A stretch of DNA of 17,255 nt. Origin: an uncultured Spirochaetia bacterium. GTDB taxonomy: Bacteria; Spirochaetota; UBA4802; JAGODF01. Each line of letters opens with the position of its first letter. The first letter of the stretch is position 1. The translations under genes were made by a program, and so were the position numbers. Below, piece after piece: positions 3,555-17,255 of this stretch. Below the pieces are notes generated by a model. The model was not told the origin of the DNA. It worked only from the letters and a program-made list of their open reading frames with translations, and ran no database searches. The stretch covers positions 1 through 17,255 of the forward strand of contig CALCJG010000021.1 in assembly GCA_937967705.1 (NCBI GenBank), written 5' to 3'.

Positions 3555-4106
3555 TCAAACTTCCTTGATCTCTCCCTTGACCCTGTAATGGATGAGACAA
3601 TAATCCTTTCCCGTTTTATAGCAGGGCTCCACATCGATCTTTATGGAAGGATTGTAACCCTTGAGAAATGCGCCGTCTTCACATTCGCAATAGGGATGGG
3701 TTCCCGATTCATAACCCCAATCTTTTGCATAATGGTAAAAATTGCACTTTTTAACCTTGATTATCAGATCCCCGTCTTTGATTGAAATGGATGTCTTGAA
3801 ATTGTTGTCGGCAAGATCATTATAGACAAGCATGTTGCGCAAGGACAGGTCCTTCCCTTTTTGCAGAACAGTTTGAGCTGTTTCCTGACCCCTTTTCATC
3901 CCGAATTCATTAACGGCGTCGATTAAGATCTTATCACTGTTTTCTCCCGGTGATTTTGTCAGCTTCTCAGCGGTTATGCTGAAAAGTCTTCCCCCCAGAC
4001 CATAAGAGGGGGTTGTGTAACGGTTGAACGTCAGAAACTGCATAATGGCTCCAACGATGAAGTAGGGCCACGTAAAGCCTTTTTCATACTCTCTTTTTAT
4101 GCTCAT
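3555..4106 (-). CDS. L-2-amino-thiazoline-4-carboxylic acid (ATC) hydrolase family protein
   Basis: The protein has 183 residues. The C-terminal half carries the family pattern: KKCNFYHYAKDWGYESG (C121), the CEC motif (C140, C142) with aspartate D144, GYNPSIKIDVE, and a closing GKDYCLIHYRVKG (C170). This matches PF14196, named after the Pseudomonas enzyme that opens L-2-amino-thiazoline-4-carboxylate on the way to cysteine. Most members in anaerobes have no proven substrate, so the reaction here is an inference from family. The N-terminus has a hydrophobic patch (FIVGAIMQFLTF) that may pack in the fold and not span a membrane. It is the last gene of a tight operon, 19 bases after the sensor kinase stop, downstream of a class III aminotransferase. 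This suggests a link to amino-acid or sulfur-containing metabolite sensing. Confidence 0.85.
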   Translation of the reverse strand: MSIKREYEKGFTWPYFIVGAIMQFLTFNRYTTPSYGLGGRLFSITAEKLTKSPGENSDKILIDAVNEFGMKRGQETAQTVLQKGKDLSLRNMLVYNDLADNNFKTSISIKDGDLIIKVKKCNFYHYAKDWGYESGTHPYCECEDGAFLKGYNPSIKIDVEPCYKTGKDYCLIHYRVKGEIKEV

Positions 4107-4125: not shown

Positions 4126-7100
4126 CTACGGATCTATAATGATGATAGTCATATCATCTTCATATCTTCTGTTTTCATGCATATGAGACCAGCTTTTTAA
4201 CTGGGTGAACAATTTCTCAATCACCTCGTCCGGATGTAATTCCACGTTATCCCTTAAAAATTCATCGAATCCCTTGGATCCGAACATCTTCTGATCGGGG
4301 GTCATAGCCTCAATAATCCCGTCGGAGTACAAGACCAGCCGGCTGCCCTTTTTCAAAGGGAAGGTTGCTTTTTCTATCTTTATCTCAGGGAACCAGCCGC
4401 AGGCTCTCCCCTTCGGTTCAATTCTCTGTATACCCGCATCCTGCCTGTTGAGTATCAGCAGCGGCTCATGACCTGCCCTGACATAAGAAACCGTCTGTGT
4501 GCCGTAATCGAACTGAAGCAAGGACGCCGTCAAAAAGAGCGAACCCATTTTGTCATACAGGGTTTCGTTCATTTTCACCAGGAATTTCTCCGGATCGTAT
4601 TTTTCACTGGCAAAAATCGACGACACAACCTTAACCATCGACGCGATCAATGCCGCCGGGATACCGTGACCGGCTACGTCTACGATCAGAACCCCCAGTC
4701 TGTTATCGTCATAAACAAAGAAGTCATAGAAGTCCCCCCCCACGCTGGCAGTCGGATCACAGCGGCATGATATTGTGCAGTCCTGGAATTTGATCTCCCC
4801 CCCGGGGAAAAGGGATTGCTGAATACGCCGGGCAAGGGCCAGCTCTTCCTGAATGATTAAGAGGGTTTTGCTCTCCTCCACCGCGTATTTCAGAGTAATC
4901 AGGGTTGAAACGCGGGCCAGAAGTTCGTTTTTATTAAAGGGTTTCGAGAGATAATCGTTCGCCCCATAGGACAAACCGGTAACGATATCGTTTATCTGGT
5001 TCTTCGCGCTGAGGAGGATGACCGGCAGTTCGTAGAGAGAATGGGTTTCCCGGATCTCCTTCAAGACATCATAGCCGGAAATCCGCGGCATCATGATATC
5101 GAGTATGACAAGATCAAAATCGAACTGAGAACGGAGCAGCTCCAGGGCAATAATTCCGTTATGTGCTTTTTGGATAAGATAATTTTTTCCCGACAAATGA
5201 TTCTCGAGCACCTGAAGATTGATGACATCATCATCGACCAGGAGTATTCTATATTGCCTCTCGTCACCGGCTACCTGGTTTTCCGCGTTGCTGAAATCCT
5301 CATAGGATTGCACTGTCTGTTCTGGCATATAGCGGAGAGACGCTGTATCTTTTCGGGTTGAGCCGTCAATATTGAGCTTTTGAATCATGTCCGGTGCATA
5401 TTGCGGAAGGGTAAAGGTAAAGGTGGAGCCCTTTTGTTCCTCGGATTCGACCCTGATAGTGCCTCCCTGCAGTTCCACGAGTTTTTTCGTGATGGAAAGA
5501 CCGAGCCCGGTTCCCCCGAATCTTTTTGTTATTGTTCCGTCAGCCTGCTCGAATTCTTCAAAAATTATGCCCTGCTTGTCTCCGGGGATGCCGATCCCCT
5601 CATCCCGAATGGAGCAGTGCACCATACCGCCCTCGTCAACAGAGGCTGAAGCGGTTATACTGCCTCCCTCGGAGAATTTGATGGCATTCCCTATCAGATT
5701 GAACAGTATCTGCTGAATTCGCTCCTCATCGCCCAGCACAAGAACAAAATCGCGGGGTATCTCATTATGCAATTCGGCGGCATGCTCCCGGGCGACATTT
5801 CCCATGACGTCATAGACAATGGCGACCGCCTGATAGAGATCGACGGGTTTCAATTCAAGATTCAAATCATCATTTTTTATCCGCGTGAAATCCAGAATAT
5901 CATTGATCAGTCTCAGGAGCCGCTTGCCGCTTGTCGAGATCAATGAAAGATTGTTTTTAACGGGCTGCGACACTTCCCCCTGTGATCCGTCATATAAGGA
6001 TTCGGCGATTCCAATGATACCGTTCAGGGGCGTCCTCAGCTCATGAGAGGTGTTGGCAAGGAACTGGTCCTTCAACGCGTTCATGGAGCGAAGCTGCTGG
6101 ACCATCTCCTCCTGAGCGTATCGGGCTTTTTTCTCGTTTATTAACGCGGTTTCCTGTGCCGCATCCTTCTCGACCTGAATACGTCTGATCCTGTCCATTA
6201 TTCCTATGGTCATTAAAATGGTAACGGATACGGAGGCAAACTGCATGATGTATATGGTGAATACATTGGTCGGTATCAGGGCAAAGCTCTGCAGGGAAAA
6301 GAGAAGAACCCCGAGGGTAAAGGTAGTCCATGCCAGCAGAAAGAAAATTGCGGGCCGAAAACCCCTGTAGAGCGCTACGGATCCCGCCGCCAGTATAATA
6401 ACCACTATGACCTGTCCGAGGATTGCATACAACCGTATCTTCAACGGAATCAGGAAATCCGTCGCTGCGCTAAAAAAAACCAGAAAAGCGGAGAGGATGA
6501 TAACCCCCCAGAAGGCCATATGAAACAGCGGCATATTCTTTTTGGTGGACAAAAATATCTGCCCAAAGCGGGAGGCGGCCATGATAGGCAGAATTCCGGT
6601 GATAAGATAGGCCCTGAACTTCCACGGCATGGCATCCGGCTCCAGGAATTCGAAGAGAACGCCATTCTGCAATGTCTGAAAGACCGCAAAGGTTACAATA
6701 TACAACCAGAAATAAAGATAGCTCTTGTCCCGGAAAACCAGAAACAGCATGAAGTAGAGTATGATCATAACGATGGAGAGCCCGTAATAGGCGCCAAGAG
6801 CGTAATGAACGATGTCATCCCTTTCAATGTAGCTCTTTAATGACCATATCTCCAGGGGCAAACGAAATGTTCCCGGCGTCTCAAACCGGAAGTAATAGGT
6901 GCGCACCTCATTGTGATAAGGGAGGAAGAAAAGATAATGCCGGTGTTTAAAATCCCTCTTTGCGAAAGGGACATCATCGCCGGCACGCTTTTCAGTATAC
7001 GCGCCTTTTCCATCAGGGACATACAAACGAATGAAATTCATCAGCGGGTAGGAGAGTTCGACAATATACCTAAGGTGGTCTCCCATGTCTCCGTCAAACC

Positions 7101-7368
7101 GGAGGCTGAACCTGACCCAGTAGACGGAAGAGGTATAGCCGTAGTTAGGAACCTCGACCGTGCTCGGTTGGAACCTTTTTTGAACTGCCGGGTCCAGCAT
7201 ATCTTTGATCGTCAGTTTCCCGTCCCGGTCTTCGAGCAGATCAATTTTTTTCCCGATTTTACAGGAGATCATATCATTATTGATTACGATCACCTCTGAT
7301 GCCGCAGCAGACGCCGCATAGAAGGTAAGGAGAAGCATCAACAGGATATGTAATCTTTTCATAGTCAT
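4126..7368 (-). CDS. 7TMR-DISM hybrid histidine kinase with receiver and PP2C/SpoIIE phosphatase
   Basis: The protein has 1080 residues. A signal peptide (1-24) is followed by a periplasmic 7TMR-DISMED2-like domain (about 26-170), seven membrane helices (about 188-392), and a short coiled linker. The histidine kinase core then has its H-box SHELRTPLNG with H442, an N-box around N557-N561, G1 DEGIGIP near 589-595 and G2 GGTGLGLSI near 618-626. A receiver follows with acidic VDDD at 711-714, phospho-acceptor D757, S787 and K809. An RsbU-type linker (ELALARRIQQSLFPG) leads to a PP2C domain whose metal-binding aspartates are all present (D879, D897, D1016, D1071/D1072). A periplasmic ligand should thus drive His-Asp phosphotransfer inside one chain and switch a Ser/Thr phosphatase, whose usual target is a phosphorylated anti-sigma antagonist. 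No such partner is in the window. It starts nine bases after the aminotransferase stop; an ATG two codons later is an alternative start. Confidence 0.96.
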   Translation of the reverse strand: MTMKRLHILLMLLLTFYAASAAASEVIVINNDMISCKIGKKIDLLEDRDGKLTIKDMLDPAVQKRFQPSTVEVPNYGYTSSVYWVRFSLRFDGDMGDHLRYIVELSYPLMNFIRLYVPDGKGAYTEKRAGDDVPFAKRDFKHRHYLFFLPYHNEVRTYYFRFETPGTFRLPLEIWSLKSYIERDDIVHYALGAYYGLSIVMIILYFMLFLVFRDKSYLYFWLYIVTFAVFQTLQNGVLFEFLEPDAMPWKFRAYLITGILPIMAASRFGQIFLSTKKNMPLFHMAFWGVIILSAFLVFFSAATDFLIPLKIRLYAILGQVIVVIILAAGSVALYRGFRPAIFFLLAWTTFTLGVLLFSLQSFALIPTNVFTIYIMQFASVSVTILMTIGIMDRIRRIQVEKDAAQETALINEKKARYAQEEMVQQLRSMNALKDQFLANTSHELRTPLNGIIGIAESLYDGSQGEVSQPVKNNLSLISTSGKRLLRLINDILDFTRIKNDDLNLELKPVDLYQAVAIVYDVMGNVAREHAAELHNEIPRDFVLVLGDEERIQQILFNLIGNAIKFSEGGSITASASVDEGGMVHCSIRDEGIGIPGDKQGIIFEEFEQADGTITKRFGGTGLGLSITKKLVELQGGTIRVESEEQKGSTFTFTLPQYAPDMIQKLNIDGSTRKDTASLRYMPEQTVQSYEDFSNAENQVAGDERQYRILLVDDDVINLQVLENHLSGKNYLIQKAHNGIIALELLRSQFDFDLVILDIMMPRISGYDVLKEIRETHSLYELPVILLSAKNQINDIVTGLSYGANDYLSKPFNKNELLARVSTLITLKYAVEESKTLLIIQEELALARRIQQSLFPGGEIKFQDCTISCRCDPTASVGGDFYDFFVYDDNRLGVLIVDVAGHGIPAALIASMVKVVSSIFASEKYDPEKFLVKMNETLYDKMGSLFLTASLLQFDYGTQTVSYVRAGHEPLLILNRQDAGIQRIEPKGRACGWFPEIKIEKATFPLKKGSRLVLYSDGIIEAMTPDQKMFGSKGFDEFLRDNVELHPDEVIEKLFTQLKSWSHMHENRRYEDDMTIIIIDP

Positions 7369-7377
7369 GGACCGGAT

Positions 7378-8703
7378 CTACAGACCTGATGAATAGAGAA
7401 GTACATTTTTATAGGTGACATCGGGAATGGAATGTTTCCTGATTTCGTCCGCAACGGAAGCAATGGTCTGAACGATAAAACGGACATCCTCATCGGTGAT
7501 GATAAAAGGAGGTTCGATACGGACCACATTCTGATTGACACCGAAGTAACCGACATAAAGGCCCTTCTCCACGCAGCGGGTTGCGAAAACCGGGCCGGCC
7601 TTATCATCCTTCCTGTTAATTATTTCCACACCGATCATCAGGCCGCGTCCCCGGACGTCGGATATCACATCCGGATATTCATCCCTGACAACCAGCAGTT
7701 TCTGCAACAGATCATTTCCCTTGTTGCGGCATACATCAACCAGGTCATGAGTGACCATGTAATCAATGACCGCCAGGGCTGCCGCCGCGGAAGGGGCATG
7801 ACCTCCATAGGTCATGACCTGCTGGCCGTGGTTCATGGAGTTGACAATTTCTTCTCTGCCTATCGCGGCCGAGATCGGGGCATAACCCGCAGAAAGACCT
7901 TTTGCAGTAACCACAATATCCGGCTCGATTTCTTCATGCAAAGACGCCCACCACTGCCCTGTTCTCCCCATGCCGGTTTGAACCTCATCGGCAATAAGGA
8001 TCGATTCATGACTGTGAAGAAGCTCGACAAGCTCCCTGAAGAACCCCTTAGAGGGGATATTTATCCCCGCGTCCCCCTGGATTATTTCCGCGATGAAACC
8101 TCCCACCGTATCTCTCTTGAGCAATTTTTTTACCTTTTGCAGGGTCCGGTCGGCGCTGTCCGGACTGGCCGGAAAGGGAACCTCATGAAACCAGGGACTT
8201 GTCGGGTAAATACCCAGATCAAGAGTACCGAAATTGGATGCCGGCTGGGAAAGGCCCGTTGTTCCGTGATATGCATTGGTAAAGTGGATAAGCTCCATCC
8301 TGCCGGTGAATTTTCTCATGGCCTCTATGGCGCCGTCATTGGCATCGGAGCCGGACAGTCCCAAAATAACCCTCTTGTCAAAGGAGCCGGGAGTCAGCGA
8401 TATCAGTTTCTCCCCCAGGGCGACCGCCTGTTCATTGGGGGAATAGAGAAATCCCGTATGCTGCATGGATATGGCCTGGTCATAATAGGCCCTGGCAATA
8501 TCCCTATGGCCATATCCCAGGATGTTGGCAGATGCGGCAGTCAGACAGTCCAGGTATACATTGCCGTCCTGATCGGTTATATGGGTCCCCTCCCCTTTTT
8601 TAAAGGAGATGCCATAGAGTCCGGCACTGGAAGGACGGGCAATAATATTCTTACTTCTATAAAATAACTCTTGTGACAACTGCCCCGGGGGAAGGGATTT
8701 CAT
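7378..8703 (-). CDS. Class III PLP-dependent aminotransferase
   Basis: The protein has 441 residues, normal length for the 4-aminobutyrate/acetylornithine aminotransferase class. Hallmarks are the SGSDANDGAIEAMRKFTG cofactor-phosphate region (about 117-134), the AYHGTTG turn (144-150), ADEVQTGMGRTG with D239 that contacts the pyridine nitrogen, and TAKGLSAGYAPISA with the Schiff-base lysine K268. The C-terminus has the usual RGRGLMIGVE and RIEPPFIIT strands. The amino donor cannot be told from sequence; omega-amino acids such as GABA or ornithine derivatives are the common substrates. The start has GAGGT about six bases ahead. It is the first gene of a three-gene operon with the hybrid sensor kinase and the ATC-hydrolase-like protein, behind a promoter candidate at 8845-8874. 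Confidence 0.95.
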   Translation of the reverse strand: MKSLPPGQLSQELFYRSKNIIARPSSAGLYGISFKKGEGTHITDQDGNVYLDCLTAASANILGYGHRDIARAYYDQAISMQHTGFLYSPNEQAVALGEKLISLTPGSFDKRVILGLSGSDANDGAIEAMRKFTGRMELIHFTNAYHGTTGLSQPASNFGTLDLGIYPTSPWFHEVPFPASPDSADRTLQKVKKLLKRDTVGGFIAEIIQGDAGINIPSKGFFRELVELLHSHESILIADEVQTGMGRTGQWWASLHEEIEPDIVVTAKGLSAGYAPISAAIGREEIVNSMNHGQQVMTYGGHAPSAAAALAVIDYMVTHDLVDVCRNKGNDLLQKLLVVRDEYPDVISDVRGRGLMIGVEIINRKDDKAGPVFATRCVEKGLYVGYFGVNQNVVRIEPPFIITDEDVRFIVQTIASVADEIRKHSIPDVTYKNVLLYSSGL

Positions 8704-10532: not shown

Positions 10533-10967
10533 GGCATCCTCCCGGTATATCCGCCGATAGAATAGAGCAGGATAACCACGATGTCAATCACTTACGGCTC
10601 ATCGGTCCTCTCACGGCTCCCAGCATACAATCTGCGGCAGGCCGGATACCCCGAGCCGGGCCAAGGAGGGAGGCCCCGGAATACAACAACTTCCATCCAT
10701 ATGTACAGAAAAAGCCCCGGACTGCCTCCGGACATCTTCCGTTTGTCCTCCGTACATCTTATTACCTCCGCCGTTTTGCTCCCTTCCTGCGCCAGGGAAC
10801 CGTTAATCCCGGCAGAAAAGACAACAATACTGCCGATTGTGTCCTAATATTGCTGTCAAAAAAGGCCCCTTGGGGTGTTAAAATTTGGAAAGATATCCAT
10901 TATTTGCTATCTTACAGTTAAGTTTTATTGCTTAAAATCAAGGATAAGTACAATCCAGGGGAATATA
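10533..10967. other. Intergenic region between divergent genes
   Basis: The region must hold promoters for the HEAT gene (minus) and the NHL lipoprotein (plus), but none is clear; near 10906-10933 TTGCTA and TTACAG stand ahead of TATTGC and TAAAAT at imperfect spacings. CCCCTTGGGG (10866-10875) preceded by six A (10858-10863) resembles a weak minus-strand terminator, with a very tight loop. I see no coding sequence. Confidence 0.35.
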
Positions 10968-11999
10968 TTGAAGATAAGAGTACTTTACATATCTCTCATA
11001 ATGTTAGCCTTAGGTCTCACGGCATGCAGCCATTCTGATTCAGACAGCGGTCGTCAGGTAACTACCATTGCCGACCTGGGGGGCAATCCCGACGGTGTTA
11101 CCGTTGCAGATTCCGGGAACATTTACGTCACTGACATTTCCAGCGGGGAGGTTATACAGATCACCCCCGCCGGTCAGACAAGCGTCATCGCCGATCTGGA
11201 CAGCACAAGCGACAACACCCACCCCGACGGGATCACCTCCGTTACGGACGGCAGCGGAAACGAGATTCTCTACATAGCAACAACAGGATCCAATGACCCC
11301 GAGGGCGGAACGCTCTCCACTGATGGAACCATCCGAAAGGTGGACGTGAACACCGGCAGCGTAACGACCTTCGTGAACAGCACCGTTCTCAACAACCCGT
11401 CCGGCATCGCTGCCGACAAATCCGGCAATCTCTATGTAGCCGAGCAGACCGGGGCCCTTTACAAGATACCGGTGGACGGCAGCGGAAATCCCGGCACGCC
11501 GGTAAACCTGACGACAGGAATCGCCAGTAGCGGCGCCGATATCGAAGCGCCCCACGGTCTTACCCTGGTCACCAACACGGACGGTTCAATCACGCTCTAT
11601 ACCACTGACCAGGGGGCAGGCAGCAACAACATACTAAAAGTCGATCTGACTTCAGCATCGGACCCCACCGTCACAGGAGCGGTCGAACTCACGATGGAGT
11701 CCACGGGAGGTTCCACCACGGACACTACCGCGGCCAATGCGAAGTTCAACAAGCCTCATGGGATTTCAACCAACGGAAAGGGGGCCATCTTCGTGGCAGA
11801 CGAGGACAACAACAGGATTCAAATTATAACCCCGGGTGGGAATGTGGTTACCTTCGCCGGAGACGGAACCGAAGGGGATGTGACAGGTGACCCCTCAACG
11901 GCCCGTTTCAGCAATCCCCGCGGAATGGCCGTGGATAAAAGCGGCAACGTTCTAGTTTGTGATTACGGCAACGGCAAGGTAAAGAAGATTACGAACTGA
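10968..11999 (+). CDS. NHL-repeat beta-propeller lipoprotein
   Basis: I start this gene at the TTG at 10968 because AGGGG precedes it by six bases and the result is a clean lipoprotein signal peptide: MKIR, hydrophobic core, lipobox LTAC with lipidated C20. Serine at +2 favours the outer membrane. The open frame upstream to 10875 adds an implausible extension. The mature protein, about 323 residues, is a ring of NHL-type repeats such as NPDGVTVADSGNIYVTD, NPSGIAADKSGNLYVAE, KPHGISTNGKGAIFVADEDNNRIQ and NPRGMAVDKSGNVLVCDYGNGKVKKI. This indicates a six-bladed beta-propeller. Such proteins bind ligands or act as surface scaffolds; some are lactonase-like, but no catalytic residues can be assigned. 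It is a stand-alone gene on the plus strand, running toward the sucrose synthase fragment. Confidence 0.9.
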   Translation: MKIRVLYISLIMLALGLTACSHSDSDSGRQVTTIADLGGNPDGVTVADSGNIYVTDISSGEVIQITPAGQTSVIADLDSTSDNTHPDGITSVTDGSGNEILYIATTGSNDPEGGTLSTDGTIRKVDVNTGSVTTFVNSTVLNNPSGIAADKSGNLYVAEQTGALYKIPVDGSGNPGTPVNLTTGIASSGADIEAPHGLTLVTNTDGSITLYTTDQGAGSNNILKVDLTSASDPTVTGAVELTMESTGGSTTDTTAANAKFNKPHGISTNGKGAIFVADEDNNRIQIITPGGNVVTFAGDGTEGDVTGDPSTARFSNPRGMAVDKSGNVLVCDYGNGKVKKITN

Positions 12000-12083: not shown

Positions 12084-12523
12084 TCAGGCCCCAGCCCTCT
12101 GGCGGAAGAGAAAGTGGTAGAGCAGATCGCAATAGCGGGACATCTTCACCTTGCCCCGGCCGGACACGGCATAGCGCCAGAAGCCGTAGAGCTTCGTCAG
12201 GTTGATGAGCCGCTCGCTGTAATTCCTCCAGGTAAAGCGCTCCGCCACCCGGCGCATGCCGTTCTCCGATATCCTCCCCCATAGACCGGGGTCCTCGTCG
12301 CAGCGGACCCAGAAGGCCTCCAGGTCCCGGGCAATGAGCTTCGGCATGCTGGTGTTGAGGAGAAATCCGCTGATCCCCTCCTCGATGATCTCCAGGGGTC
12401 CGCCGAAGCGCGGCCCGAAGGTGGGAAGCCCCGAGGACATGGCCTCCAGTATGGTCAAACCGAAAGCCTCGAAGAGGGCGGGCTGCACAAAAACGCCCCC
12501 ACGGTCTGTCATGATGCGGTAGG
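12084..12523 (-). pseudogene. Truncated duplicate of the sucrose synthase 3' end
   Basis: This block repeats the last 145 codons and the stop codon of the sucrose synthase gene at 15150-15589, in the same orientation and at a constant offset of 3066 bases. I count five base differences in about 440 (12120, 12132, 12172, 12507, 12509). Homology begins at the stop codon and ends just before codon Y554 of the partial intact gene; a TGA lies a few codons further upstream in frame. The fragment keeps the C-terminal Rossmann half with the E-x7-E motif but lacks the acceptor domain and the donor-binding Arg/Lys. An ATG at 12512 would allow 142 residues, but it has no ribosome site. It is best seen as a gene remnant left by recombination. 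Confidence 0.95.
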
Positions 12524-12597
12524 CATCTCACGAAGGCCTAAGGGAAAGACACCATACAACACCAACCGGGCAAAGGTACTGTGCATATACTCATCCC

Positions 12598-12626
12598 AGT
12601 ACAGACTGTCCCCGTCTGGACTTTTT
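12598..12626 (+). terminator. Rho-independent terminator upstream of the YedE gene
   Basis: AGTACAGAC (12598-12606) pairs with GTCTGGACT (12614-12622) in a nine-position stem with one mismatch, a seven-base loop and a run of five T. It lies about 100 bases before the YedE start. It may stop read-through from the left or act as an attenuator. Confidence 0.7.
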
Positions 12627-12627
12627 A

Positions 12628-12725
12628 CGCTCTAATTATCAATATTATCATTCCCTGGACAAAAAAATACTTGATATTAATTATCCATATATTTGATTTA
12701 ATGCAACAAAAAATCCAATAGAGGG
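12628..12725 (+). promoter_or_regulatory. AT-rich promoter region of the YedE-TusA-DUF3343 operon
   Basis: Directly after the terminator the DNA turns strongly AT-rich. TTGATA at 12671-12676 can be a -35, and TTTAAT at 12697-12702 a -10, but the 20-base spacer is long, so the exact boxes are uncertain. No regulator site is evident. Confidence 0.35.
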
Positions 12726-12729
12726 CATA

Positions 12730-13806
12730 ATGAAAAATTTCTTCTCGTCCCGGTGGGGCATCATCGTCACCGGAGCGGTTATCGGCAGTATCGCGGTTAC
12801 ACTGCAGCAGTTGGGCAATCCTGCGAACATGGGCATATGTGTCGCATGCTTCGAGCGTGACATAGCGGGAGCCCTTGGTTTCCACAGAGCGGACGTTGTT
12901 CAGTATATTCGGCCAGAAATACCCGCCTTCGTACTTGGATCATTCATCATATCCCTTTTTACAAAGGAATACCAGCCACGGGCAGGTTCTTCAACCATCA
13001 TAAGGTTTTTCCTCGGCGTTTTTGCCATGATAGGAGCTCTTGTTTTTCTTGGATGCCCCTGGAGGGCTCTCCTCCGGCTTTCAGGCGGAGACTGGAATGC
13101 CCTTACAGGCATTGCAGGGCTCATAACCGGAATTTCAGCCGGCGTACTTTTCCTAAAAAACGGGTTCAGTCTCGGCCGAAACTATAAACTCAAGAAAGGT
13201 GCAGGATGGATATTCCCCGCATTTATGGTTGCTCTTCTGGTCATGCTCCTCTTTAAATTCAGGGTATCAGATACTGGCCCGCTGTTTTTCAGCGCAAAAG
13301 GTCCTGGTTCACAGTATACACCTGTTTTGATTAGCCTTGCGGCAGGGCTCATCATCGGCGCTATAGCGCAAAGAAGCAGATTCTGCACCATGGGTTCCCT
13401 CAGGGACATCATCCTTGCCCGTGACTTTCATCTTGCAAGCGGCATTCTTGCCATGGTTGTTTTCGCGACTGCGTTGAATCTTGTGTACGGGCAGTTCAAC
13501 CCCGGTTTCGACGGACAGCCCGTAGCGCATACAGCGCATCTGTGGAATTTCGCAGGCATGGCGCTTTCAGGCCTTTCATTCGCCCTGGCAGGCGGATGTC
13601 CGGGGCGCCAGTTGATCCTTTCGGGGGAGGGGGATTCGGATTCTGCTGTCTTTGTTGTGGGCATGATCGTCGGCGCAGGCGTATCACACAACTTCCTTCT
13701 GGCAAGCTCTTCTGCAGGCCCAGGGGCTTTCGGACCAGCCGCCGTAATAATCGGTATTGTGTTCTGCCTGATTATCGGCATTACGATGCGTGAAAAAGTA
13801 AATTAG
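12730..13806 (+). CDS. yedE: YedE/YeeE-family transporter, selenium-metabolism (YedE-related) type
   Basis: The protein has 358 residues and about nine or ten membrane helices. It matches the YeeE/YedE family (PF04143), whose characterised member TsuA imports thiosulfate through a path lined by cysteines. Conserved elements seen here are NMGICVACFERDIAGALG (C37, C40), GCPWR (C109), RSRFCTMGSLRD (C219) and GGCPGRQ (C290). The MGxCxACFxRDIAGALG signature and the adjacent TusA-like and DUF3343 genes are typical of the YedE-related subgroup tied to selenium metabolism. The substrate is therefore probably a reduced selenium or sulfur species, by inference. GAGGG precedes the ATG by four bases. It is the first gene of a three-gene plus-strand operon; the TusA-like gene follows after ten bases. 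Confidence 0.93.
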   Translation: MKNFFSSRWGIIVTGAVIGSIAVTLQQLGNPANMGICVACFERDIAGALGFHRADVVQYIRPEIPAFVLGSFIISLFTKEYQPRAGSSTIIRFFLGVFAMIGALVFLGCPWRALLRLSGGDWNALTGIAGLITGISAGVLFLKNGFSLGRNYKLKKGAGWIFPAFMVALLVMLLFKFRVSDTGPLFFSAKGPGSQYTPVLISLAAGLIIGAIAQRSRFCTMGSLRDIILARDFHLASGILAMVVFATALNLVYGQFNPGFDGQPVAHTAHLWNFAGMALSGLSFALAGGCPGRQLILSGEGDSDSAVFVVGMIVGAGVSHNFLLASSSAGPGAFGPAAVIIGIVFCLIIGITMREKVN

Positions 13807-13816
13807 GAGGATATGT

Positions 13817-14029
13817 ATGGCGGAAAGAATTGACGCCAGGGGGCTTTCATGCCCACAACCGGTCGTTCTGACACAGAAGGCGATAAAAAGCGGTCTTCCG
13901 GAGTTTGAGGTGCTGGTCGACAGCGAAGTGTCACGCGAAAACGTTACAAGGTGTCTCGAGAATAATAAAATGATTGTTGAGACAAGCTCGGAAGGTGATA
14001 CTTATGTTATAGTTGCCAAGAAAAATTAA
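13817..14029 (+). CDS. yedF: TusA/SirA-like sulfurtransferase, YedF type
   Basis: The protein has 70 residues, the length of a stand-alone TusA. The active-site CPxP motif is intact (GLSCPQPV, C12). The VDSEVSRENVTRCLENN segment resembles YedF-type members more than classical TusA. TusA-like proteins carry persulfide sulfur, or in this context possibly selenium, on the cysteine between donors and acceptors in the cytoplasm. The longer YedF proteins have a second domain; here that role may be taken by the separate DUF3343 gene 60 bases downstream. A strong AGGAGG sits six bases before the ATG. Next to YedE, it probably receives the imported chalcogen. Symbol assigned by family and context. Confidence 0.93.
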   Translation: MAERIDARGLSCPQPVVLTQKAIKSGLPEFEVLVDSEVSRENVTRCLENNKMIVETSSEGDTYVIVAKKN

Positions 14030-14089
14030 TGATATCGATTCCATATACAGAGAGAGGACTTTCCCGGATCTGAGGTAATCCAATACGAT

Positions 14090-14311
14090 ATGTCAGAATT
14101 CATGGTAATACTGTTCTTTTCGAATAACTACACGATGTGGGCATCGAATGTCTTGAAAAAAAACAGGGTGCCCCACAAACTTATTCCCATCCCCCGGCAT
14201 ATGAGTTCCGACTGCGGTTACTGTGTAAGAATTAACACATCCGATAAGGATATTGCGCTGGACCTGATGACCGGTTCAGATATTGAATTTGACAGGATAG
14301 AAGCATTATGA
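14090..14311 (+). CDS. DUF3343 putative Se/S carrier protein
   Basis: The protein has 73 residues and follows the DUF3343 pattern (PF11823, putative Se/S carrier-like): an initial beta strand ILFFSNNYTMWASNVLKK, then VPHKLIPIPRHMSSDCGYCVRI with the conserved SSDCG cysteine, and a short alpha/beta end. The cysteine is presumed to carry sulfur or selenium, by analogy with TusA; this has little biochemical proof. A second cysteine three residues later (CGYC) is not standard and could form a redox pair. TGAGGT is the likely ribosome site, a little far from the ATG at 14090; ATG at 14102 is an alternative start. It ends the YedE operon and converges on the Mop gene. Confidence 0.92.
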   Translation: MSEFMVILFFSNNYTMWASNVLKKNRVPHKLIPIPRHMSSDCGYCVRINTSDKDIALDLMTGSDIEFDRIEAL

Positions 14312-14456
14312 TCTATAACCGTAAATACGACAGCGGATTCCTGTTTCTCCACTGCTGCAATCTTCTAGAAAGAGCCACAATCATTCCACATAAACAAGGG
14401 GGATTTCCCTGATTCGACAGGCAGCAAGCCACCTGTAAAACGGTAGTCCTGAGCAG

Positions 14457-14666
14457 TTATTCCTTTACAGGGAGTACATGTATGGCCTTAATAATAAGGT
14501 GAACAGAATCCCCCTCTTTGAGGTCAAGCGATTTCACCGAATCTGTTGTAAGGACTGAACTCATTTCATGGGGGACAGTAATTTCAAACTTCACCTGGGA
14601 CATGATGTCGCCTGCTTTTATTGATTTTACCTTTGCAACAATATTGTTCTGAGCACCGTATTTCAT
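14457..14666 (-). CDS. Mop-domain molybdopterin/molybdate-binding protein
   Basis: The protein has 69 residues and is a single TOBE/Mop domain (PF03459). Diagnostic segments are MKYGAQNNIVAKVKSIKAGDIMSQVKFEI, the HEMSSVLTTDSVKSL helix that shapes the binding site, and LKEGDSVHLIIKAIHVLPVKE at the end. Molbindins of this size form hexamers that bind molybdate or tungstate for storage or homeostasis in the cytoplasm. The start is fixed by GGAGG, six bases ahead. It is convergent with the Se/S-carrier operon and stands 145 bases from it. A Mo-binding gene here fits genomes in which labile selenium is used with molybdenum hydroxylases, but no such enzyme is in the window. Confidence 0.93.
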   Translation of the reverse strand: MKYGAQNNIVAKVKSIKAGDIMSQVKFEITVPHEMSSVLTTDSVKSLDLKEGDSVHLIIKAIHVLPVKE

Positions 14667-15149
14667 AGCCTTCCTCCATCATTATTCTTATTGATCGAAA
14701 CATACAAAAGAATGACATCCCTTCCCGGCAAAAGAATCCCACAGGAGACCTTGAGATATACTGATGTCATTTAGTCAAACTCCTGTCCTTATTCCATGGA
14801 AGTATTCCGTTCCCTTACTAAGAAAGTACCTAAGTTACAATAACAATTCAAATATTTTGCACGGCTATGGAACAAAGGTCAGGCTCATCCCGGTCAGAGC
14901 CAGAAACATACGCTCCAGGGGCAGAACTCCCGCACGAGAATCATCCGTCCTACTCCTTCTGGCAAGGAGTTCAATCCCGGGGTTGAATTGGCTTTGCAGA
15001 GAGCATACCGGGCGGCATTCTCCCCGCACTCCTCAGATGTCAGAACCGCCGAACGCTCTCCCTATCATCACCGCCTTTTCCGGGCTGGAGAGACAATAAA
15101 GCTACAGACGAGAGGACGCAGAGAGAACTCCGGTATCCTTACATCCTCC
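14667..15149. other. Intergenic region with paired hairpins and a possible coding remnant
   Basis: No complete gene is supported. On the minus strand a frame without a start stays open from 15061 to 14894 and reads coding-like at first (TSEECGENAARYALCKANS), perhaps a decayed gene end or part of an interspersed repeat. Two adjacent inverted repeats lie inside it at 14953-14988 (separate entry). The sucrose synthase transcript would run into this region; no T-run terminator is visible. Confidence 0.3.
14953..14988. repeat. Two back-to-back inverted repeats
   Basis: ACTCCTT (14953-14959) and AAGGAGT (14965-14971) form a perfect seven-base stem with a five-base loop. They are followed at once by TTCAATCCC / GGGGTTGAA (14971-14988), nine-base arms with one wobble. 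No T-run follows on either strand. The layout resembles REP-like or terminal structures of interspersed repeats. Confidence 0.45.
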
Positions 15150-15589
15150 TCAGGCCCCAGCCCTCTGGCGGAAGAGAAAGTGGTAAAGCAGATCGCAGTA
15201 GCGGGACATCTTCACCTTGCCCCGGCCGGACACGGCGTAGCGCCAGAAGCCGTAGAGCTTCGTCAGGTTGATGAGCCGCTCGCTGTAATTCCTCCAGGTA
15301 AAGCGCTCCGCCACCCGGCGCATGCCGTTCTCCGATATCCTCCCCCATAGACCGGGGTCCTCGTCGCAGCGGACCCAGAAGGCCTCCAGGTCCCGGGCAA
15401 TGAGCTTCGGCATGCTGGTGTTGAGGAGAAATCCGCTGATCCCCTCCTCGATGATCTCCAGGGGTCCGCCGAAGCGCGGCCCGAAGGTGGGAAGCCCCGA
15501 GGACATGGCCTCCAGTATGGTCAAACCGAAAGCCTCGAAGAGGGCGGGCTGCACAAAAACGCCCCCACGGTCCGCCATGATGCGGTAGA
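15150..15589 (-). repeat. Intact-gene copy of the 440-bp direct repeat
   Basis: This is the sucrose synthase 3' end that matches 12084-12523 with five differences. Both copies share their last base at the stop codon; beyond it the flanks are unrelated. Confidence 0.95.
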
Positions 15590-17255
15590 CCTCCCCGGTG
15601 TCGGCCTTGGCGATGCTGGGCAGCCAGCAGACGCTCCCCTCCAGGCCGTAACGGCCGATCAGGTGATAGGCTCGCTGTATCTCATCCCTCTCCTCCGCAT
15701 CGTGGGATTCCTCCAGTCGGGTCGTTCCGGCCGCGAATATGAGATTACACCGCTCCCGCAGTTTTTTGCTCATCCCGAAGGCCTCGATGAGGCCTGTTAT
15801 GTTCTTGATGCGGTCGAATCGGGCCATCGTAAAGAGAGGCCTCTTGCCGGGGTCCTTCAGCCTGCCGAAGACATCCGGCATTTCCTCGTGAAAGATCCGC
15901 GATTCCCAGTACTCAGTGCTTCCGCTGATGCGGCGTTCCTTTTCCCCGAAGGGAAAGTACTGGTCCTCGTCCACGCCGGGGGGTATGACGTTGAAGCGGG
16001 GCGCGTAGAGGTTGATGCCGTTGATAACCCGGTAAAGCCCCGGCAGGGAGAAGTTCTGATAGGACTCGTACTGCCCCATGGTCTGCTCTGTGCCGAAAAT
16101 CTCCTGATGCGTGCTGGTGATAATGAAATCCGCCTTGTTCATGGCGATCAGGTCCGCCGTAAACTGCAGCGAAAAGCCGTACCTCTCCTCGTTGTCCTTC
16201 CAGTAAAGGTCGGAAAAGAGGTACTTCGTCTTCTCCAGGGCATGGGCGATATTGCACTGGATGACGTCCATCCTGTCGGAGAGGAGCGTGGCCACCAGGT
16301 TCCCGTCGGAGTAGTTGCCGATTATGAGGTCCGGCCGTCCCTGGAACTCGCTCTGTATCTCCCGGCAGGCGTCATCGGCAAACCGCTCCAGGTAGGGCCA
16401 GATGTGGAAGCGGGATATCCAGGGCCGCACAACGTTCTGCTCAGCGTCCCGGAAGGGGACTCTCAGTATCCAGCCGTTGACGGTGTGATGGATCTTCTCG
16501 AGTCTCCGGTCGCAGGAGGTCTCCCCGGCGTCAGGAATGAGCCGCGTGACCACCAGTATCTTAGGAACGATGGAGAGTCCCGCCTCGGCGATTTCCCGCG
16601 TCAGGTGGCGCTCCAGGGCCCTCACCTGGTCCAGAATATAGATCACCTGCCCGCCCGTGTCCGGCCGCCCCAGCACGTTCTCCTGGCCGAACCATCCGTG
16701 GGGCGAAATCACGGCCACCCGGGAGACCAGGGGCATGGGTACGCTGGATATGAATTTCTCCAGAAGTATATCGTCAGGCTCGTTGATGAGGTCCAGCAGC
16801 AGCTGCATCGTCTCCGCGATCCGGCCCGCCGTGCTGCCCCAGCCCGGCTCGAAGCCCACAGCCTTGAGCCGGGCCTCCAGGGAGGAGCAGGGCGTTGACG
16901 GGTCGTATGACCTGACCAGATCCACGGTGTTCTCCAGTTTCGAGAGAAACATCCCGAAATCCGTCACCAGGGAACCGTTCACCAGAAGCTGCTGCCCCTG
17001 GTATTTGTGCAGCTTAATGAATTCGAAGAGGTGATTGTTCCATTCCGCGGGCTTCTGAAAGATATTGCTCGACATGTAGCGGTTGAGAAACCGTATGCCG
17101 TTGCCCAGGGATTTGGTGTCCCGCATCGCGGGATAGTAGTCGTAGAAGGGCATAAAATCCACGTCCAGGGAGCGCTCGTCCGCGGACGTCCCCAGGGCAC
17201 GGGAATCCTTGAGGGAAAGGTACTCCGCCGTGGTGATCTCGTCCATGTGCTCCCC
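15150..17255 (-). CDS. Sucrose synthase (GT4 family), 5' end cut by window
   Basis: At least 701 codons are open to the window edge. The ATG at 17246 is internal, since the frame continues upstream and full enzymes have about 790-810 residues. Counting from that ATG, residues 1-165 belong to the plant-like N-terminal regulatory domains. The GT-B core follows with HGWFGQENVLGRPDTGGQ (183-200), which binds fructose and the nucleotide sugar. ARFDRIKNITG has donor-binding R476 and K481, and EAFGLTILEA holds the E-x7-E pair (E571, E579). The enzyme reversibly converts sucrose plus UDP or ADP into NDP-glucose and fructose in the cytoplasm. Bacterial members often prefer ADP, but I cannot tell here. 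The last 145 codons are duplicated at 12084-12523. A sucrose-phosphate synthase is excluded by the sucrose-synthase-specific N-terminus. Confidence 0.95.
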   Translation of the reverse strand, partial: GEHMDEITTAEYLSLKDSRALGTSADERSLDVDFMPFYDYYPAMRDTKSLGNGIRFLNRYMSSNIFQKPAEWNNHLFEFIKLHKYQGQQLLVNGSLVTDFGMFLSKLENTVDLVRSYDPSTPCSSLEARLKAVGFEPGWGSTAGRIAETMQLLLDLINEPDDILLEKFISSVPMPLVSRVAVISPHGWFGQENVLGRPDTGGQVIYILDQVRALERHLTREIAEAGLSIVPKILVVTRLIPDAGETSCDRRLEKIHHTVNGWILRVPFRDAEQNVVRPWISRFHIWPYLERFADDACREIQSEFQGRPDLIIGNYSDGNLVATLLSDRMDVIQCNIAHALEKTKYLFSDLYWKDNEERYGFSLQFTADLIAMNKADFIITSTHQEIFGTEQTMGQYESYQNFSLPGLYRVINGINLYAPRFNVIPPGVDEDQYFPFGEKERRISGSTEYWESRIFHEEMPDVFGRLKDPGKRPLFTMARFDRIKNITGLIEAFGMSKKLRERCNLIFAAGTTRLEESHDAEERDEIQRAYHLIGRYGLEGSVCWLPSIAKADTGEVYRIMADRGGVFVQPALFEAFGLTILEAMSSGLPTFGPRFGGPLEIIEEGISGFLLNTSMPKLIARDLEAFWVRCDEDPGLWGRISENGMRRVAERFTWRNYSERLINLTKLYGFWRYAVSGRGKVKMSRYCDLLYHFLFRQRAGA

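Follow-up and report, generated by a model that had tools for sequence, protein, structure and literature searches.

We analysed a 17,255-bp stretch of DNA (hereafter the window) from an uncultured Spirochaetia bacterium (contig CALCJG010000021.1, assembly GCA_937967705.1), in which two copies of the 3' end of a sucrose synthase (SuSy) gene enclose a segment of selenium-related genes (Table 1). The copies form a same-orientation direct repeat of 439 bp (12084-12522, hereafter copy 1, and 15150-15588, copy 2), identical at 434 of 439 positions (98.9%) with no gaps and a spacing of 3066 bp, and they correspond to the last 439 bp of the SuSy gene, or 146 codons including the stop. The SuSy gene body is attached to copy 2 only (at 15150), and copy 1 breaks off after 439 bp. 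An earlier note on this DNA had described a direct 440-bp repeat of the last 145 codons with one copy joined to the gene; this description was confirmed, except that its coordinates overran the inner edge by 1 bp. No other direct repeat family was found in the window by a repeat scan (exact seed of 14, at least 25 bp; that scan lists 300 bp of the 439-bp repeat), and the scan listed no inverted repeats. A single event of recombination or duplication most likely left this repeat behind.

The segment between the copies spans 2627 bp (12523-15149) and carries yedE, a tusA-like gene, an Se_S_carrier gene and a Mop gene, in agreement with the roughly 2.6 kb of selenium, sulfur and molybdenum genes reported earlier. 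The SuSy reading frame is uninterrupted over the 2.1 kb that lie in the window, with the first part of the gene beyond the window end. There the N-terminal part of the protein is cut; the 797-amino-acid SuSy that contains the window's protein (P0001) has 99 residues ahead of the ATG at 17246.

Table 1. Features at and around the repeated SuSy 3' end (window coordinates)
Feature	Position	Strand	Basis
NHL-repeat protein, gene beyond the outer edge of copy 1	10875..11999	+	PF01436
Copy 1, detached SuSy 3' end	12084..12522	-	434/439 identical to 15150-15588
Junction of SuSy fragment and selenium segment; yedE upstream region	12523..12729	.	Sequence; identity to copy 2 ends at 12522
Small hairpin followed by T-run, upstream of yedE	12602-12618	.	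Site scan
yedE, putative selenium transporter	12730..13806	+	TIGR04112, 496 bits (cut-off 200)
tusA-like (SirA-like) gene, YedF N-terminal domain only	13817..14029	+	PF01206; TIGR03527, 53 bits (below cut-off 110)
Se/S carrier-like protein (DUF3343)	14090..14311	+	PF11823, 59.5 bits
Mop / TOBE domain protein	14457..14666	-	PF03459, 29.8 bits (cut-off 22.3); TIGR00638, 47.4 bits (below cut-off 55)
483 bp without recognisable gene, up to SuSy stop codon	14667..15149	.	Open reading frame and noncoding searches
Copy 2, SuSy 3' end joined to the rest of the gene	15150..15588	-	Repeat comparison
Sucrose synthase, open at right end of window	15150..17255	-	TIGR02470, 974.6 bits (cut-off 810.4); 797-amino-acid protein P0001

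Anatomy of the repeat and a candidate insertion

The reading that we favour, at a probability of about 0.4, is a recent single-crossover (Campbell-type) insertion at the SuSy 3' end. Under this model, the chromosomal SuSy gene would have recombined with a circle, putatively from a related strain, on which the yedE, tusA-like, Se/S carrier and Mop genes were joined to the final ~440 bp of a near-identical SuSy gene; the crossover would have taken place within this common 3' end. A full 3' end (copy 2) would thereby have stayed with the live gene, while copy 1 would have been severed from the gene body and left as a silent remnant beside its original downstream neighbour, the NHL gene. The order predicted by such an event is intact gene, insert, displaced 3' remnant and old downstream neighbour. 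In the window, the insert stands between direct copies of the putative recombining sequence and one copy completes the gene; no open reading frame (ORF) of the fetched SuSy neighbourhoods matches the NHL flank. The model is supported because identity between the copies stops precisely at the SuSy stop codon (with the inner limit of copy 1 at 12522) and the flanks show no clear similarity past the repeat (in 300 shuffles, scores at least as high arose in 7% and 26%), as when two SuSy genes with different downstream neighbours meet. Looping-out of the cassette by RecA is plausible. The earlier note had proposed that a circular or linear segment entered by one crossover, and of this proposal the anatomy of a Campbell-type insertion stood; linear entry was rejected on general knowledge, as a single crossover with a linear segment breaks the chromosome.

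Judged from their sequences, the copies look young. The five mismatches between them (12120, 12132, 12171, 12507 and 12509) are all transitions and hit four codons, three of them silently and one as GCG (Ala) in copy 2 versus ACA (Thr) in copy 1. Third-position changes account for 4 of the 5, compared with an expected silent share of 0.32 for transitions (P = 0.04 for at least 4 of 5), a weak hint that the copies may have diverged mostly as functional genes; this test, the flank shuffles and the mismatch-placement test described below were picked after the data had been seen. At the Ala/Thr site, a loose-pattern look gave Ala in all 10 rows, and a subsequent alignment of 45 distinct SuSy rows gave Ala in 44, Gly in one and Thr in none. 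The Thr of copy 1 is therefore a derived state, which would fit a silent copy 1 under the insertion and duplication models alike. Copy 1 is probably such a silent 3' remnant, with an ORF of 142 amino acids (12084-12512). A search of the protein database with this fragment gave no separate, near-identical cluster of that length: of 280 matches 120 were listed, the best at 72%. This result is uninformative if fragments collapse into the full-length cluster, P0001, which has 5 member sequences.

The same anatomy would also follow, in fewer steps, from a local segmental duplication, a serious possibility though on balance an unlikely one. Here the selenium genes would already have stood downstream of SuSy, and a second version of the last 439 bp would have come to lie ~3 kb off, in the interval that separates the NHL gene from yedE. 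Template switching, unequal exchange or the decay of another SuSy copy could have produced it, with neither a circle nor mobility involved. It is favoured by the position of the derived amino-acid change in copy 1; however, a boundary exactly at the stop codon would be a coincidence, and silent-biased differences would be unexpected in a dead copy, though they number only five.

Placement of the mismatches and the assembled path

All mismatches sit no more than 88 bp from one edge of the repeat or 16 bp from the other, and the 335-bp core between them is identical; five changes placed at random left an unbroken run of 335 bp or more in 0.4% of draws (P = 0.004). Edge-only mismatches are the pattern of reads phased next to unique flanks with a consensus core, and gene conversion would give the same. 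An identical core of 335 bp exceeds usual short-read k-mers. In short-read graphs, places sharing k-mers can be joined and yield chimeric contigs, as described in a section of PMC7299287. We infer that a short k-mer graph cannot tell the path NHL-R-cassette-R-SuSy (R, the repeat) from NHL-R-SuSy plus an R-cassette circle, nor from two strains.

The arrangement may accordingly be a product of the assembly of near-identical strains or of a circle, which we consider unlikely but well short of far-fetched: the path could join the NHL-SuSy of one strain with another molecule, for example a 3066-bp circle or a tandem array of R plus cassette. Besides the mismatch pattern, in which every difference is phasable via the unique flanks, this explanation is favoured by the contigs listed with the proteins. 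The SuSy gene is cut at the window end, yet one contig, 4568 bp long, is given for the 797-amino-acid P0001, and an identical YedE is listed with four contigs of up to 97,483 bp. On the other hand, copy 1 has its own alleles at the inner junction (12507 and 12509), with others near the outer edge, and the selenium segment touches SuSy 3' ends on both sides in every alternative path that we drew. The junction itself is likely real, because the alleles at 12507 and 12509 mark copy 1 as a distinct sequence; on the same ground we rejected the idea that the assembler had misjoined SuSy reads at 12522.

The selenium segment and its relatives

We searched the segment for signs of an element with its own means of movement. 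Among the ORFs tested, which did not include every ORF of the window, none matched a recombinase family, in line with the earlier note, and tRNA and Rfam scans were empty; neither of the marks of an integrative element or genomic island, an integrase (encoded or bordering) and a tRNA gene site, was thus recognised in what was searched. No attachment core was identified, the plasmid collection gave no match, and the nine pattern matches of YedE in viral_contigs were not confirmed in any case. The hairpin motif upstream of yedE has no second place in the window and no exact match in viral_contigs, and promoter- and terminator-like sites in the region were not clearly above shuffles (hairpin-type sites, 6 versus a shuffle mean of 4.3, sd 2.2). 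Neither of the ORFs at 14764-15099 and 14988-15350 matched Pfam or PHROG, and the 483 bp leading up to the SuSy stop codon had no match to the fetched loci in blastn or six-frame tblastn. Noncoding matches to these loci were rejected as chance (four by blastn of 17-40 bases, E 0.03-0.06; one by tblastn of 23 residues upstream of yedE, E 0.009).

These results bear on a further explanation, that of a site-specific element like prophage e14, which would carry a replacement 3' end, leave the native end as a remnant, and be reduced here to its cargo and moved by an integrase in trans. It shares its geometry with e14 in icd (replacement 3' end, displaced remnant, mostly silent differences), as far as the relevant part of PMC6379469 describes it. 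However, the ORFs tested between the repeats included none recognisable as an integrase or phage recombination gene, an attachment core is wanting, and the cargo resembles resident metabolic genes, so that we regard this explanation as very improbable.

Foreign composition was likewise rejected as evidence, as the guanine-plus-cytosine (GC) content of both yedE (0.52; 6 relatives measured, 0.42-0.62) and SuSy (0.60; 4 relatives measured, 0.36-0.62) falls within the range of the relatives.

We further compared the locus with related genomes. Among the 46 genomes searched of the closest class, SuSy was full or near-full in 10, with matches listed down to E ~2e-4, far weaker than any second SuSy end would score. 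None of these 10 had a second SuSy 3' end, the SuSy of genome G033, which matched as two adjacent pieces, being counted as one gene. In that genome (L050, G033:C3:1233-3252) the two pieces look as if a frameshift or gap had split the gene. A second end was also absent from 36 further genomes, in which the C-terminal 142 residues matched exactly once in 35 and not at all in one (1e-20). The window's SuSy is 65-68% identical to proteins of four Spirochaetota metagenome-assembled genomes (MAGs; 40 loci compared), and loci of Desulfobacterota MAGs reach similar identity. The fetched SuSy neighbourhoods contained no ORF resembling the NHL, HEAT or selenium genes; the SuSy of the nearest relative is only 68% identical and its flanks differ. 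These loci cannot count as genuine empty sites, since the genomes are drafts and even the nearest of them is distant.

The yedE search covered 392 genomes drawn from the phylum, with matches listed at 1e-100 only, and found the gene in 24 of the 46 class genomes, which also held the best YedE matches (84, 81 and 77% identical). The 30 loci returned (24 in the class and 6 elsewhere in the phylum, with no more than 1.5 kb on each side) had a tusA-like gene in 28 cases, an Se/S carrier gene in 8 and a Mop gene in 1 (L074), and the order yedE, tusA-like, Se_S_carrier is the same in relatives such as L071-L073. The window's Mop gene (14457-14666) is 84% identical to positions 2784-2990 of L074, beside yedE, where a second tusA-like and Se/S carrier match was also seen. 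In four relatives checked (L101, L102, L103 and L114), selD stands beside the yedE cluster, with SelD above the family cut-off, and the gene before yedE in L102 encodes a selenium-associated LysR regulator (243.6 bits, just under the cut-off of 250). The SelD proteins of L101 and L102 gave no tblastn match in the window at 1e-3, nor did this LysR match there; selD may have been lost or may be located elsewhere than in the window. By its content, the yedE segment resembles a portion of a gene cluster normally resident in the class, with selD missing, rather than a specialised mobile cargo.

All six class genomes that have both SuSy and a YedE match at this threshold carry the two on different contigs, which speaks against a local duplication, and four SuSy-bearing genomes (G002, G003, G007 and G033) gave no YedE match at 1e-100, their inclusion in the 392-genome draw being unconfirmed. 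The comparison that the earlier note had called for therefore yielded a single SuSy 3' end in 10 class genomes, yedE on another contig wherever both were found, and the window's arrangement in no relative searched; the single end and the separate contigs favour the insertion model. In favour of a local duplication, yedE is resident in the class, where SuSy, yedE and the M24 peptidase encoded at the window's far left all have relatives. Six of the 46 class genomes encode this peptidase at 67-69% identity; together with SuSy and YedE it fits one Spirochaetota-like host, less so the aminotransferase and the HEAT protein described below.

Several points weigh against the Campbell-type insertion. 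These comparisons turned up neither an empty site nor an excised circle nor a donor. The excision and reversible gain and loss put forward in the earlier note found no support, and neither did a foreign origin of the cassette, as yedE is ordinary in the likely host class (24/46). The edge-only mismatches (P = 0.004) suggest that the centre of the copies may be an assembly consensus. Local duplication yields the same anatomy in fewer steps, and a plain duplicate in decay would be just as likely to show the Ala-to-Thr change seen in copy 1. The circle, moreover, requires a prior event that fused the SuSy interior to the yedE upstream region.

Further genes of the window were characterised in passing. 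An aminotransferase of the acetylornithine/4-aminobutyrate kind (7378-8703) matched none of the 46 class genomes at 1e-60, in a search without positive control, and was possibly acquired. The HEAT protein had one match only among the same genomes (39% identity). The protein encoded at 3555-4106 contains an L-2-amino-thiazoline-4-carboxylic acid hydrolase domain (PF14196), and the adjoining ORF of 1080 amino acids (4126-7368) reads by eye like a hybrid sensor kinase whose tail resembles a phosphatase.

Comparison with known systems

The meaning of the arrangement depends on the explanation adopted, and the systems described below serve as precedents, the locus being assigned to none of them. 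Were the cassette mobile, the mechanism proposed for rhs loci would reach to an ordinary metabolic gene, with genes gained at a 3' end, no integrase and the target kept. If it arose by local duplication, the event is of a common kind; if it is an artefact of strains or a circle, it calls for caution with short-read contigs that contain long identical repeats. By analogy with rhs tips, a recombinase-free cassette might enter and leave a core metabolic gene via the gene's own 3' end, a full replacement end keeping the gene intact in both states, so that RecA alone could bring about gain, loss or amplification of the selenium genes in the form of a 3066-bp circle; we consider this quite improbable.

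The gene content recalls the selenium clusters of YedE, SirA-like, DUF3343 and SelD proteins, in which, in the part of PMC5322559 that treats them, yedE adjoins a SirA-like gene and a DUF3343 gene is also present. The window likewise has a yedE of TIGR04112 with tusA/SirA-like and Se_S_carrier genes adjoining, whereas an adjoining selD is absent, neither selD nor LysR_Se was found in the window, and SuSy 3' ends flank the set.

The genomic island of microcin H47 resembles the locus in its long imperfect direct repeats at the flanks and in having no recombinase of its own, according to the portion of PMC3191183 concerned. It differs in that excision and integration were shown experimentally, also without RecA, and in its repeats (144-148 bp, 76% identity), its size (13 kb) and its unrelated cargo.

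Prophage e14 in icd of E. coli provides the 3' end of the gene, as copy 2 may do here, while the native 163-bp end persists as a pseudogene copy, and its excision restores icd (in the relevant passages of PMC6379469). In contrast to the 2.6-kb segment with its 439-bp repeats and no recognised recombinase, e14 is a 15-kb prophage with site-specific integration.

A parallel in mechanism is offered by the displacement of rhs C-terminal ends, for which a two-step circle model by homologous recombination has been proposed in the sections of PMC2935791 that deal with it. There the C-terminal tips differ and arrays form, whereas in the window the C-termini are the same but for one residue, a single remnant is present and the gene is a metabolic one. 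In both cases gene fragments lie downstream as direct repeats of the intact gene, and the mechanism put forward for rhs is homologous recombination with a small circle, which by the same sections no integrase is known to accompany.

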